Origin: Synergistaceae bacterium
GTDB taxonomy: Bacteria; Synergistota; Synergistia; Synergistales; Synergistaceae
Direction of reading: 5' to 3'
Assembly (NCBI GenBank): GCA_012513245.1
Contig: JAAZCN010000056.1
Span: forward strand, 1-9,405
DNA: 9,405 nt
Part shown: one piece after another, positions 2,361 to 4,975 of the stretch
Layout of the letters: each line of letters starts with the position of its first letter
Numbering within the stretch: the stretch's first letter is position 1
Made by a program: the position numbers and the translations under genes
Notes under the pieces: generated by a model
Seen by the model: the letters and a program-made list of their open reading frames with translations, nothing else
Databases searched by the model: none
Told to the model about the DNA's origin: nothing

Positions 2361-2540
2361 ACCGTGGCTGGTTCATGCCACAAATTCTCCGCCAGAAGTA
2401 CCATCTGGCAAATTCACCGCGGCACGTTCCTTGCCGCAATTCCCCCTGTCCCTAAACAACCGCTTCCCGGCGATGAAATCGCCACTTCACGCGGCAGTCT
2501 CATGCCGCACTTCACGCCGGTGAATCCTCTTTTGCCGGTG
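2361..2540. repeat. Hairpin-repeat block 4 (five hairpins, enters symporter 3' end)
   Basis: Five short hairpins follow each other: GTGGC/GCCAC (2364-2368/2377-2381), GCCAGA/TCTGGC (2391-2396/2404-2409), GCGGCA/TGCCGC (2419-2424/2432-2437), GGCGAT/ATCGCC (2469-2474/2478-2483) and GCGGCA/TGCCGC (2491-2496/2503-2508). The linkers between them are variants of AATTCACC or ACTTCAC. The last unit, with two direct CCGGTGA copies at 2518 and 2535, lies inside the 3' end of the minus-strand symporter gene. Stem sequences differ but pairing is kept. Positions 2432-2512 are an inverted copy of 4765-4845. Confidence 0.75.
2432..2512 (-). repeat. 81-bp inverted repeat, left copy (partner 4765-4845)
   Basis: The reverse complement of this segment aligns to 4765-4845 over 81 bp without gaps and with seven mismatches that I can count, about 91% identity. 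The pair encloses the full symporter transcription unit: its promoter, leader, terminator and both membrane-protein genes. Four of the mismatches fall in and beside the loop of the GCGGCA hairpin. Confidence 0.8.
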
Positions 2541-3981
2541 ATCCTACTAAATCGCCTATCCTGAACGTCCCCTTTTTTGCAAAGAGAATGAATGCAGTAA
2601 AGGATGCTGCCACTCCCGGAAGGATAGGGTGTATCGCGCCGATGATACCCGGAGCTGAGATCCCGCTTATCCCCATTGATGTAGGTTTATATGCCAAGAG
2701 GTACCAGGCTAAAGTGCCTGCCAGACCGAAGGCCGATGACGAAAATGCAGCTTTTGACCCTGCTTTTGGTCCCTGTATCAGAAGGGCGAGGTAAGGTACC
2801 AGAATTGAGCATGCAAGTATTGTCCAGCTTGTTGCGCAAATGAGGGCAATTATTGATGAGCTTTTCAGTGCGAAGATACCGCTGCAGGCAGTGCAGAAAA
2901 TCACAACGATCCTCCAGGACCAACCTGACAGCTGTTTTTTGAATACGTCACGTCCCAGGCTGCCGCTTGCTATATGGAGAAGGGCGGAAGCAGTGGAAAG
3001 TGATGCCGAAACTATAGCAAGAGCGAAAAGATGCTGACCGAATACCGGAAGAAGTTTATGTACCAGCGTGGGAAGCACAATATCAGGATTTGTGATCCCG
3101 GGGCCCATGATAAGCCTCGAAAGCGCGCTTGCAAAGTAGGCTCCACCAACCACGACTGAGAGCGCAAGCATTGCCATCGGTGCCGCTTTTCTTGCTTCCT
3201 GGTTGCTCTTTAGCGCGAAGTGCCGCTGGATCATTTGAGGTTGAGCCCAAATTCCCACCGATGTTACAAGCGTGAGGAAAATGATGTTCAGTCCCGCAGG
3301 GCCGCTGCTCAAAGCCAGAAAACCATTATTTGCAGCCTCTGTAGGAGGGAGTGCCGCCAGTGCCTGAAGGCCTGTTATTGGACCTCCCACCTCGCGAAGC
3401 AAAGAGAAGAGAAGTGCCCCAACACCAACTATCATTACGAGCCCTTGAAACGCTTCAGTGTAAAGCACGCCCCTTAGCCCTCCCCAGACTACGCTTATGC
3501 CGACTACTGTTACTAAAAGAGCAAGCGCCGTGTTAGACGAGAGCGGCAGTACCCCGGAAACCATGACAGCGGCACCTTTGAATACGGCTGAACCGTAAAT
3601 TATCAGCAGTACTGTAGATATTGATCCGAGAAAGGTTTGCAGCTTTGGAGTCTCAAAAGCTTTTGATAAAAATTCTGCTGGAGTTTTGGAATCAAGCTTC
3701 CTCTGCCACAGTCTCGTTGGCCATGCTAGGTAACGGTAGACGAACCATGTTCCAAGCCAGACATTTCCGGCCGCTATAAGGAGCATCTGCATCCCGAAGA
3801 CATAGCAGAGGCCGCCGAATCCCACCAGCGCAACCGCCGAGATATATGTAGCGACATATGCAAGGGCCTGGACAGCGACCCCAACTTTTCCCGGGAGCAG
3901 TGCATCCCTGCTTTTGGAGAACTTAGCGATCAGGACCAGGAGGATGGCGTATCCGATCCACAGAAGGGCAAAAGAAAACAT
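2512..3981 (-). CDS. Sodium/solute symporter (SSS family)
   Basis: This 489-residue polytopic membrane protein has about 12-13 predicted spans and should couple inward sodium flow to uptake of an organic solute. Family signatures include the first-span region with ATYISAVALVGFGG, a TEAFQGLVMIVG segment near residue 178, QPQMIQRHFALKS (family form QPhxxxRfxAxkd) and SASLSTASALLHIASGSLGRDVFK, where the Ser/Thr pair corresponds to the conserved sodium-site helix of SSS proteins. The gene starts 1 nt after the stop codon of a 31-residue membrane protein, so the two are probably translationally coupled; its own ribosome site is weak. The substrate is not readable from the protein, but the Tyr-rich leader peptide upstream points to tyrosine or a related aromatic. 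The last residues (GSPAKEDSPA) are encoded by hairpin-repeat DNA, apparently a recent 3' extension. Confidence 0.92.
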   Translation of the reverse strand: MFSFALLWIGYAILLVLIAKFSKSRDALLPGKVGVAVQALAYVATYISAVALVGFGGLCYVFGMQMLLIAAGNVWLGTWFVYRYLAWPTRLWQRKLDSKTPAEFLSKAFETPKLQTFLGSISTVLLIIYGSAVFKGAAVMVSGVLPLSSNTALALLVTVVGISVVWGGLRGVLYTEAFQGLVMIVGVGALLFSLLREVGGPITGLQALAALPPTEAANNGFLALSSGPAGLNIIFLTLVTSVGIWAQPQMIQRHFALKSNQEARKAAPMAMLALSVVVGGAYFASALSRLIMGPGITNPDIVLPTLVHKLLPVFGQHLFALAIVSASLSTASALLHIASGSLGRDVFKKQLSGWSWRIVVIFCTACSGIFALKSSSIIALICATSWTILACSILVPYLALLIQGPKAGSKAAFSSSAFGLAGTLAWYLLAYKPTSMGISGISAPGIIGAIHPILPGVAASFTAFILFAKKGTFRIGDLVGSPAKEDSPA

Positions 3982-3982
3982 T

Positions 3983-4078
3983 TTATTTCACCGACCTGAT
4001 GATCTTTATTATCGACCAGGCGGCGCTCCATAAAAGGGAAGCTCCCGAAATTACTACCCACATATCTGTATTGCACAT
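3983..4078 (-). CDS. 31-residue single-span membrane protein, probable symporter accessory subunit
   Basis: An ATG at 4078 is preceded by an excellent ribosome site, GGAGGGG (4091-4085), 6 nt away. The frame runs 31 codons to TAA at 3983-3985, and the symporter ATG begins after one further base. The product has a short polar N-terminus (MCNTDM), one hydrophobic segment of about 20 residues (WVVISGASLLWSAAWSII) and a basic C-terminus (KIIRSVK), which suggests an N-out, C-in single span. Tiny one-span proteins encoded directly before sodium symporter genes are known for several symporter families and are annotated as small accessory proteins. I assign this role by position and topology, not by recognised homology. 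Confidence 0.75.
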   Translation of the reverse strand: MCNTDMWVVISGASLLWSAAWSIIKIIRSVK

Positions 4079-4140: not shown

Positions 4141-4178
4141 GAAAAAAAGGACCGCCGGCCCTCGGGTCGGCGGTCCTT
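4141..4178 (-). terminator. Strong intrinsic terminator between leader peptide and symporter genes
   Basis: On the minus strand AAGGACCGCCG (4178-4168) pairs perfectly with CGGCGGTCCTT (4157-4147) around a 10-nt loop, and a run of seven more T residues follows (4148-4142 region). The long GC stem plus U-run is a textbook factor-independent terminator for minus-strand transcription. It lies 25 nt after the stop codon of the leader peptide and before the two membrane-protein genes, the position of an attenuator rather than of an operon end. Confidence 0.9.
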
Positions 4179-4362
4179 GAAGTATCATCCAGCAGGAATA
4201 TTGCTATGCTGACTCAGACTTCGCAGAAAACACCAGTCGCCCCGAGGCATAATTGCAGCGAGGATAAGAGTATGCATAGTAATAGGAAAGATTTCTGTTC
4301 ATACCATCCGGCATTTTCGCGAGCCTCCTTCAGCTTTTAAATTTTAAACTTCTGACCGATTG
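4147..4362 (-). promoter_or_regulatory. Candidate tyrosine-responsive transcription attenuator
   Basis: The region runs from the predicted transcript start (about 4362) through the Tyr-rich leader peptide to the terminator. A candidate antiterminator is CCTCGGG (4247-4241, codons 23-25, just after the last Tyr codon) pairing with CCCGAGG (4166-4160), with weaker support from GGT (4234-4232) against ACC (4174-4172). This would engage the terminator loop and part of its 5' arm. A second small hairpin, CAGCA (4211-4207) with TGCTG (4194-4190), encloses the leader stop codon and would be opened by a terminating ribosome. The overall arrangement is convincing, but the exact alternative folds are not settled by eye. 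Confidence 0.55.
4204..4314 (-). CDS. Tyrosine-rich leader peptide (36 residues), probable attenuator
   Basis: ATG 4314 has a good ribosome site, AAGGAGG (4330-4324), 9 nt upstream, and the frame ends at TAG 4204-4206. Residues 11-22 read YYYAYSYPRCNY: six tyrosines in twelve residues, encoded by both TAT and TAC. The peptide is neither a signal sequence nor a membrane span. It follows a near-consensus promoter by about 50 nt and is followed by a strong intrinsic terminator, then by the symporter pair. That order matches leader peptides of attenuated amino-acid operons, in which ribosomes stall at codons of the scarce amino acid and prevent termination. Alternatives are a free-standing small protein or a nascent-chain arrest peptide. 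The frame and its signals are directly visible; the tyrosine-sensing role is inference. Confidence 0.68.
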   Translation of the reverse strand: MPDGMNRNLSYYYAYSYPRCNYASGRLVFSAKSESA

Positions 4363-4368
4363 CAGGAG

Positions 4369-4397
4369 ATGATACAGCCACTTCATCATGATGTCAA
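4369..4397 (-). promoter_or_regulatory. Sigma70-type promoter of the leader-symporter unit
   Basis: On the minus strand a perfect -35 box TTGACA (4397-4392) is separated by 17 nt from TATCAT (4374-4369), one base from the -10 consensus. Transcription should start near 4362, leaving a 5' untranslated leader of about 48 nt before ATG 4314. The palindromic tandem repeats begin only about 15-40 bp upstream of the -35 box. Confidence 0.82.
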
Positions 4398-4410: not shown

Positions 4411-4760
4411 GGCGCAATCGGGGCATCTCGGAGCGCTAGCTTAGCAACATTTGCGGTCCTGCGCGTCAACGTATGCCCAATACGCCTCCGCTTGAACCAC
4501 TGCATGTTGCGTCGCTATCATCTCCGATCTGCCCCAATTGCCGCAATTGGGGCAGATCGCGGCGCTGACTTAGCAAAATACGATGCTCCTTCACCTCAAC
4601 GTATGATTAATACGCCTCGGTTCGAAGCATCGCATGTTGCGTCGTCATCATCCACGATCTGCCCCAATTGCGAGATGGGGAATATCGTAAAAAACTTAAA
4701 AGCGCGGCGCTAACTTAGCAACACTTAAAATCCTTCACGTCGACGTATGATTAATACGAT
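4411..4760. repeat. Palindromic tandem repeat, about 2.5 units of 130-145 bp
   Basis: Landmarks recur in order: GCGCT-NN-CTTAGCA at 4433, 4562 and 4707 (spacings 129 and 145) and CGTAT-N5-ATACG hairpins at 4470, 4600 and 4744 (spacings 130 and 144). Units also share CGCATGTTGCGTCG-like and GATCTGCCCCAATTG segments. Each unit is rich in self-complementarity: GCAACAT (4444-4450) with ATGTTGC (4504-4510) in unit 1, and CGATGC (4581-4586) with GCATCG (4627-4632) in unit 2, both enclosing the CGTAT/ATACG hairpin. Open frames crossing the region have no ribosome site and I do not consider them genes. The last unit abuts hairpin-repeat block 5. Confidence 0.8.
4525..4559. repeat. Perfect 16-bp-arm palindrome inside the tandem repeat
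   Basis: Arms 4525-4540 and 4544-4559 are perfectly complementary over 16 bp around a CCG loop; the left arm begins CGATCTGCCCC and ends CAATTG. There is no U-run on either side, so it is not an intrinsic terminator. The corresponding site in the next unit (4654-4688) keeps only ACGAT/ATCGT and CCCC/GGGG pairing. Confidence 0.85.
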
Positions 4761-4763
4761 GGC

Positions 4764-4975
4764 AAAGTGCGGCATGAAGATGCCGCGAGAAGTGGCGATT
4801 TTATCGCCGCGAAGCGGTTGTTTAGGAACAGGGGGAATTGCGGCACGTCCCTCGCCGCAATTCCCCGGCTGTCTCCTCGGTGCACCACGACCGCTTGCCT
4901 ACTGCTTGCCCATTGCTTGCCAACGGCTTGCCCGCATTTACGACCGACTCCCCCGCAGGGTGTTTCATCCTGCAA
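4764..4975. repeat. Hairpin-repeat block 5
   Basis: The left part carries hairpins GCGGCA/TGCCGC (4769-4774/4781-4786), a GGCGAT/ATCGCC pair (4794-4799/4803-4808) and GCGGC/GCCGC (4840-4844/4853-4857), matching block 4 in inverted order. The right part, from about 4889, has five 11-nt units ACCGCTTGCCT, ACTGCTTGCCC, ATTGCTTGCCA, ACGGCTTGCCC and GCATTTACGAC. They lead through CGACTCCCC into the hairpin GCAGG/CCTGC (4956-4960/4968-4972). This order (11-mers, CGACTCCC, hairpin) is the same as in block 2. The block ends about 60 bp before the CofE-like gene. Confidence 0.75.
4765..4845 (+). repeat. 81-bp inverted repeat, right copy (partner 2432-2512)
   Basis: This segment matches the reverse complement of 2432-2512 with seven mismatches and no gap. 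It includes the stretch GAAGCGGTTGTTTAGG followed by CAGGGGGAATTGCGG, which is not itself palindromic, so the match is true homology and not merely shared hairpin composition. Confidence 0.8.

Follow-up and report, generated by a model that had tools for sequence, protein, structure and literature searches.

We analysed a 9,405-nt stretch of DNA from a Synergistaceae bacterium (Synergistota), called the window below, and found a tyrosine-rich leader upstream of a gene for a sodium:solute symporter (SSS). This leader is very likely a ribosome-mediated transcription attenuator that senses charged tRNA-Tyr, and it probably serves tyrosine uptake. The reading is drawn from sequence: the parts and their conservation, a constraint for Tyr at the codon block, a constraint on the RNA behind it, and a match between sensor codons and the gene downstream. 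An earlier note on this DNA had described the promoter, the ribosome site, a frame of 36 codons of which six are Tyr, the terminator, a 31-residue frame and an SSS symporter, and all of these lie where it had placed them. The parts, all on the minus strand, are as follows.

4369..4397, minus: sigma-70-type promoter TTGACA-17-TATCAT (TTGACA 4397-4392, TATCAT 4374-4369), 11/12 consensus matches
before ATG 4314, minus: ribosome site AAGGAGG
4204..4314, minus: putative leader peptide frame of 36 codons, MPDGMNRNLSYYYAYSYPRCNYASGRLVFSAKSESA, with six Tyr at codons 11, 12, 13, 15, 17 and 22
4264..4284, minus: sensor block TAT TAC TAT GCA TAC TCT TAT, codons 11-17
4240..4263, minus: possible hairpin 1:2, CCUCG 4263-4259 with CGGGG 4244-4240, directly after the last clustered Tyr codon
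4227..4247, minus: region 2, predicted antiterminator 5' strand (duplex prediction), CCUCGGGGCGACUGGUGUUUU
4161..4178, minus: region 3, terminator 5' arm and loop, predicted antiterminator 3' strand
4142..4178, minus: intrinsic terminator 3:4 (stem 4178-4147, U-run 4148-4142), 11-bp perfect stem
3983..4078, minus: 31-aa membrane-like frame, the operon's first gene, directly before the symporter
2512..3981, minus: SSS family transporter, 489 aa, Pfam PF00474 (SSF), 3.4e-31

As in an attenuator, a short frame with its ribosome site and promoter lies 5' of the gene that it would regulate, and an intrinsic terminator, whose stem extends to 13 pairs and one mismatch over 14 positions, stands between leader and gene. 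The leader promoter is one of two in the window with 11/12 matches. TTGACA with a spacing of 16-18 nt was present in 21/21 Synergistota leaders having enough upstream DNA, and a promoter-like pair in 28/39 of all leaders tested (mononucleotide-shuffled rate 0.091). The window also contains dispersed intergenic repeats at 4457-4758, 2419-2512, 4765-4858, 273-342 and 1960-2029, of three kinds (85 nt direct at 81%, 94 nt inverted at 86% and 70 nt direct at 87%).

We infer translation of the frame, stalling, read-through, the substrate and the exact pairing, and propose that the switch would operate as follows. Under tyrosine shortage, the ribosome would stall on the Tyr block and cover the 5' arm of hairpin 1:2, which starts directly behind the block. 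Region 2, about 13-26 nt further along, would then be available for pairing with the terminator 5' arm. With antiterminator 2:3 formed, RNA polymerase would continue into the small frame and the symporter gene. With ample tyrosine, the ribosome would move across region 2, the terminator would fold and transcription would end.

Leaders upstream of orthologous symporters

The symporter was found in 26/185 Synergistota and 54/348 Desulfovibrionales genomes searched, and a contig scan gave 58 loci from Synergistota, Desulfovibrionaceae, one Candidatus Adiutrix and one unplaced deltaproteobacterium (labelled Myxococcota in the tree). The nearest loci were from Synergistaceae and were 92-93% identical in the symporter. 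For the upstream comparison we used 79 distinct regions of at least 150 nt, the window included, of which 24 came from Synergistota and 55 from others, nearly all Desulfovibrionaceae. Duplicates were removed, near-copies were kept, and L008 and L080, with no upstream DNA, were dropped.

A short aromatic leader frame was present in all 24 Synergistota regions, with at least 3 Tyr in 10 codons in 23 and 2 Tyr in the exception, L086. The leader of L005 is cut at a contig edge and still shows YYYAYSYP, and L009 carries its Tyr codons in a poorer layout (covariance-model E 0.079). Nineteen of the 55 other regions carried a Tyr or Tyr/Phe leader: 8 had a Tyr block (L021, L022, L028, L045, L047, L051, L052, L137) and 11 a reduced Tyr/Phe form with a terminator (L029, L043, L055, L056, L058, L092, L099, L115, L121, L126, L128), for example RYYFTGVIH and FRFFRYYVARVSH; the leaders of L043 and L056 were identified by eye. 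Phe-rich frames with terminators, SFVFFGFFFS and TIFFFMSFFFT, occurred at L015 and L139 and possibly reflect retargeting within the symporter family. L015 is the Candidatus Adiutrix homolog and L139 a second Desulfovibrio cuneatus symporter copy. By a strict rule, a relaxed rule and reading by eye, the leader was not found in 34/55 non-Synergistota regions (the region of L130 is 432 nt only). Frames near a terminator in L016-L020 and L102 were rejected as leaders because they resemble the end of the upstream gene.

The earlier note had expected orthologs to keep the Tyr cluster and the terminator. This was borne out in the 23 Synergistota regions and part of the Desulfovibrionaceae, and went the other way in the 34 leaderless and two Phe-rich regions. 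On a tree of 65 symporters the Tyr-leader label needed 7 changes, and 19 of the 27 rows called leaderless (L015, with its Phe-rich frame, counted among them) sat in one nested Desulfovibrio clade, so the pattern reads as loss.

Sensor codons and the genes downstream

We searched 185 Synergistota genomes with the leader covariance model, and fetched and read 20 stretches of non-symporter matches. Leaders of the SYYAYYYYYYLYP and YCVYYYYYYYLKP kind stand before a TRAP transporter (L178, L180), RYYYCYYAYPRMYNAPG before another SSS symporter (L175, L176), and NFYFYWFFTF / FNYYYFYFTW-type leaders before aroE (L173, L174, L177, L179, L181). Family models identified aroE in L174 and L177, SSF in L175 and DctP and DctM in L178; the remaining genes were named by resemblance. 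The Tyr share of the sensor was 0.85 in 22 Synergistota symporter leaders, with no Trp and with a Phe in 11/22. It was 1.00, Tyr only, before the other SSS (n=2) and the TRAP transporter (n=2), and 0.58 in Desulfovibrionaceae symporter sensors, with Phe in 16/18. The aroE sensors, with Phe, Tyr and Trp, had a Tyr share of 0.40 and Trp in 5/5. Sensor codons thus track the place of the gene in aromatic metabolism. This match is the best argument for a role of the symporter in serving tyrosine, and the leaders also hint at what the two SSS symporters and the TRAP transporter carry.

One genome, G138, holds both a symporter leader, MMGKALFNNNYYYYFYAYPRTYDASGFLVFSTK, and an aroE leader, MGKALLNKNFYFYWFFTFPRSFDASGCLAFFAK, which can be aligned throughout. 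Their hairpin and terminator segments are closely alike, and the Tyr codons are replaced by Phe and Trp. Such codon-swapped twins are a natural experiment in which amino acid specificity changes and the RNA stays. We favor the view, with some reserve, that the Synergistota leader attenuators are homologous, exchangeable modules, one RNA switch that was duplicated and retargeted by its sensor codons, and that they form the first tyrosine-specific peptide attenuator regulon, beside T-boxes.

The symporter itself matches PF00474 with 109 bits against a gathering score of 22.8, and stays below the NCBIfam cut-offs for PutP and PanF. Small frames like the 31-aa one stand before several symporter orthologs; that of the window had no match among the Pfam or NCBIfam family models, and it is possibly an accessory subunit of the symporter. 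To judge from the sensor codons, tyrosine or a source of it is the most likely substrate of the symporter. It is distinctly less likely, though worth weighing, that tyrosine regulates the operon while the symporter moves a different substrate, be it a shikimate-type precursor, some other aromatic compound or a peptide. The symporter reaches no NCBIfam equivalog cut-off, which leaves room for another substrate, and the related operons of L173 and L177 include a TctC-type binding protein gene downstream of aroE. In addition, a PDH_N (tyrA-type) match was present in 13/26 symporter genomes and in none of the other 13 (Synergistota assemblies as deposited), so the hosts with the match may make tyrosine; the same count lends no support to a tie between the symporter and tyrosine auxotrophy. 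Against another substrate, the sensor is Tyr, unlike the Phe/Tyr/Trp leaders of the shikimate step, and Tyr-only leaders also precede the other SSS symporter and the TRAP transporter, the latter from an unrelated family.

The same sensor counts bear on the idea that the attenuator responds to aromatic amino acids generally (Phe and Tyr) and not to tyrosine specifically. Phe is mixed with Tyr in the Desulfovibrionaceae leaders and occurs in half of the Synergistota symporter sensors, two distant homologs (L015 and L139) have Phe-rich frames, and in the available part of PMC11802643 the Phe-Tyr-Phe leader AroR of C. glutamicum responds to Phe and is indifferent to Tyr. The block in the window, however, is Tyr without Phe or Trp, the Synergistota sensors are dominated by Tyr and lack Trp, and the TRAP and other SSS leaders are Tyr only while the aroE leaders carry all three aromatics. 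We therefore regard general aromatic sensing as unlikely and sensing of tyrosine as the better reading.

The searches turned up further leaders. The same covariance model matched FYW leaders (YFYYFYFW and FYFWYFYF types) at L201-L230 in Desulfovibrionales, where 25/30 loci were read; the sensors of L218 and L226 (2/22 aroA'-type leaders) are FYFWYFYF. Judging by context, the operon behind these leaders is probably aroA'-aroB', which has the look of the alternative dehydroquinate pathway. In five Synergistota genomes (L182-L186), Pro-containing frames (CYPCPASRFP, NPCVPPC, NPSPCPSVVP) with a terminator stand before proC-like genes (Pfam: L182) and are candidate proline attenuators. Branched-chain-rich frames, VVVIIILGILAL (L189) and NLVLVLISCG (L187), precede the gene for the acetolactate synthase small subunit (Pfam: L189). 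The proC and acetolactate synthase leaders score weakly and may be separate attenuators. A SFAFTYYYANVG frame precedes a PaaK-like ligase gene (L190), and a QFYFSFYYGVHC frame a gene without a Pfam match and an amidohydrolase (L192). At L177, aroE, type I dehydroquinase and the TctC-type binding protein lie in a row, and at L173 aroE is followed by TctC; these rows possibly serve import and use of a shikimate-type compound.

Codon constraint, RNA constraint and alternative pairing

We compared the sensor columns in 14 of the 23 Synergistota rows of alignment A2, picked for equal layout (L003, L005, L010-L014, L086 and L087 were left out). The five sensor columns encode Tyr in 68/70 codons, 51 TAT and 17 TAC. 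With no layout selection, between 2 and 6 Tyr occur in the 7-codon sensor of every one of 22 Synergistota leaders (71 TAT and 30 TAC among 154 codons; L005 was not readable there). Since TAT and TAC interchange, Tyr is conserved as an amino acid, as in an attenuator; what links the block to tyrosine is the match of codons and genes from leader to leader. Behind the sensor, L006 and L083 have a shifted frame and preserved nucleotides GCCTCGGGGC..GGTGTTTTCT, and in region 2 third codon positions vary least (94 vs 209 and 131), indicating that this stretch is conserved as RNA.

These observations also bear on an arrest peptide, that is, a specific nascent chain that would stall the ribosome in the presence of a free ligand. 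The peptide end VFSAKSESA is common to close relatives, as such a peptide might require, but the sequence varies outside the Tyr block, the tail is in another frame in L006 and L083, and in the aroE leaders Phe and Trp take the place of sensor residues. An arrest peptide is thus very improbable, and stalling at Tyr codons for want of charged tRNA-Tyr is preferred.

The terminator is conserved as a structure, with 7/13 pairs changed on both sides in alignment A2. Taking both helices together, 86.9% of the cells in A2 were paired, compared with 79.5% after shuffling and no more than 58.8% after sliding. Double changes affected 10 pairs, a number that 0/500 shuffles reached; this signal is mainly that of the terminator and is inflated by related sequences. 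The double changes of hairpin 1:2 stem from three rows (L010, L011, L086) in a badly aligned part; A2 misplaces this hairpin in some rows, and its L005 row is without the sensor.

The earlier note had found an antiterminator of 7 bp only (4247-4241 with 4166-4160). The pairing that we predict is longer, about 4247-4227 against 4178-4161, with a duplex energy of -17.3 kcal/mol in the window (24/300 shuffles were as good). Across leaders, region 2 pairing was only modestly better than in shuffles (mean z -0.69). It starts 13-26 nt behind the sensor in 25/27 leaders, the exceptions being L047 at 4 and L058 at 37. The stem-score, blocking and hairpin-shuffle analyses covered 41 of the 43 Tyr or Tyr/Phe leaders, L009 and L128 being left out. 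Hairpin 1:2 can be drawn behind the last Tyr as CCUCG/CGGGG, CCCCG/CGGGG, CUCCG/CGGAG, CCCGG/CCGGG or UGGGGU/ACCCCG and begins 0-2 nt after the sensor in 25/41 leaders; it was no stronger than in shuffles (mean z 0.43, 0/41 leaders at 5%). We did not take the stem variants as covariation since the shuffle control does not bear this out.

As a test of coevolution, we also exchanged leader and terminator halves between species, and the outcome was mixed. For the 1:2 duplex, 159/20000 permutations were as good with 27 loci and 427 with 19 representatives; within groups, the numbers were 9286 (Synergistota) and 1571 (Desulfovibrionaceae) of 20000. The 1:2 stem-score rule gave 3355, 5937 and 2646 permutations as good, and the 2:3 duplex 2012, 3850 and 4206 and, in a second run, 1126, 3595 and 4363; with a terminator 5' arm and a CGGGG that hardly vary, the leader/terminator swap is a test of low power. 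When the first 11 nt were blocked (region 1, shorter 5' end), the predicted 2:3 pairs increased in 26/41 leaders. Blocking made no change in 14/41, the window included, and gave fewer in one.

Folding of the window RNA with and without the Tyr codons blocked, which the earlier note had suggested as a check, agreed with attenuation in part. The free nascent RNA showed hairpin 1:2. The antiterminator formed with the ribosome on codon 17 or 11 and was absent once the ribosome lay over region 2. It was present again in the nascent fold for a ribosome at the stop codon, contrary to the simple model. The full-length RNA preferred the terminator at every ribosome position tried. A kinetic switch would be required. 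On these folding models, the termination half of the switch is the less well explained half. The attenuator reading of the earlier note was strengthened by the Tyr cluster and terminator of orthologs and by the tracking of codons and genes, while the statistics of the alternative RNA pairing are weak.

The controls leave next to no room for coincidence. Our detection rule, which asks for a short frame holding 4 or more (alternatively, 3 or more) Tyr within 10 codons and closely followed by a terminator, was passed by 25/79 symporter upstream regions at 4 Tyr and 30/79 at 3 Tyr, and by 0/790 dinucleotide shuffles; the shuffles seldom hold a terminator (10/790 by the rule), and 4/790 have a short 4-Tyr frame. 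Of 751 stretches of 500 nt taken 5' of ORFs in L001-L058, 80 carried a terminator; 19 satisfied the rule for Tyr, and every one of these lay at the symporter. The highest counts for other residues were Leu 15, Ala 14, Ser 10 and Arg 9. That a chance frame lies beside another gene's ordinary terminator, as the promoter and terminator scans of the whole window, which were at shuffle level, might suggest, is negligibly probable given these controls, the conservation of the Tyr codons and of the leader across Synergistota, and the recurrence of the promoter and of the part order in orthologs.

Comparison with known systems

Tyrosine control is known through TyrR and T-boxes. Tyr T-box leaders sense tRNA-Tyr charging and end in a terminator, and the leader described here resembles them in its terminal terminator and in the sensing of tRNA-Tyr charging that we propose. 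They differ in that T-boxes bind the tRNA directly and need no peptide. The window had no match to the Rfam T-box (RF00230) and nothing in Rfam at gathering score; nine window matches (E 0.014 to 7.5), all below the cut-offs, were taken as chance. T-box matches occurred in 133/185 Synergistota genomes and exceeded the cut-off in 47, so the phylum would use T-boxes alongside peptide attenuation. In the available parts of the sources, tyrosine is among the amino acids of T-boxes (PMC1262725) and TyrR regulons are treated (PMC5343134).

Among the literature matches listed, which are open-access (most subscription papers fall outside), none described a tyrosine peptide attenuator. The available parts of these sources name trpL, pheL and pheST as ribosome-mediated attenuators (PMC11802643), and report His attenuators of the his operon in Firmicutes (PMC9413887), His leader peptides in bacilli (PMC2965389) and a Phe-type frame before aroF in Acholeplasma (PMC8632094). 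AroR of aroF in Corynebacterium glutamicum is likewise a leader peptide before an aromatic gene; in what is available of PMC11802643, it differs in its biosynthetic target and in that Tyr availability is without effect on it. The attenuator predicted before aroA'-aroB' in Desulfovibrio vulgaris (PMC1173090) probably belongs to the same operon kind as that behind the Desulfovibrionales FYW leaders, but the available part of that source describes it without a leader peptide, codon block or transporter. The classical leader-peptide attenuators are alike in having a short frame with a cognate codon block, alternative hairpins, a terminator and an amino acid gene downstream. Here, by comparison, the alternative pairing is less well supported, the cognate codon is Tyr, the target is a transporter, and the leader occurs in Synergistota as well as Desulfovibrionaceae.
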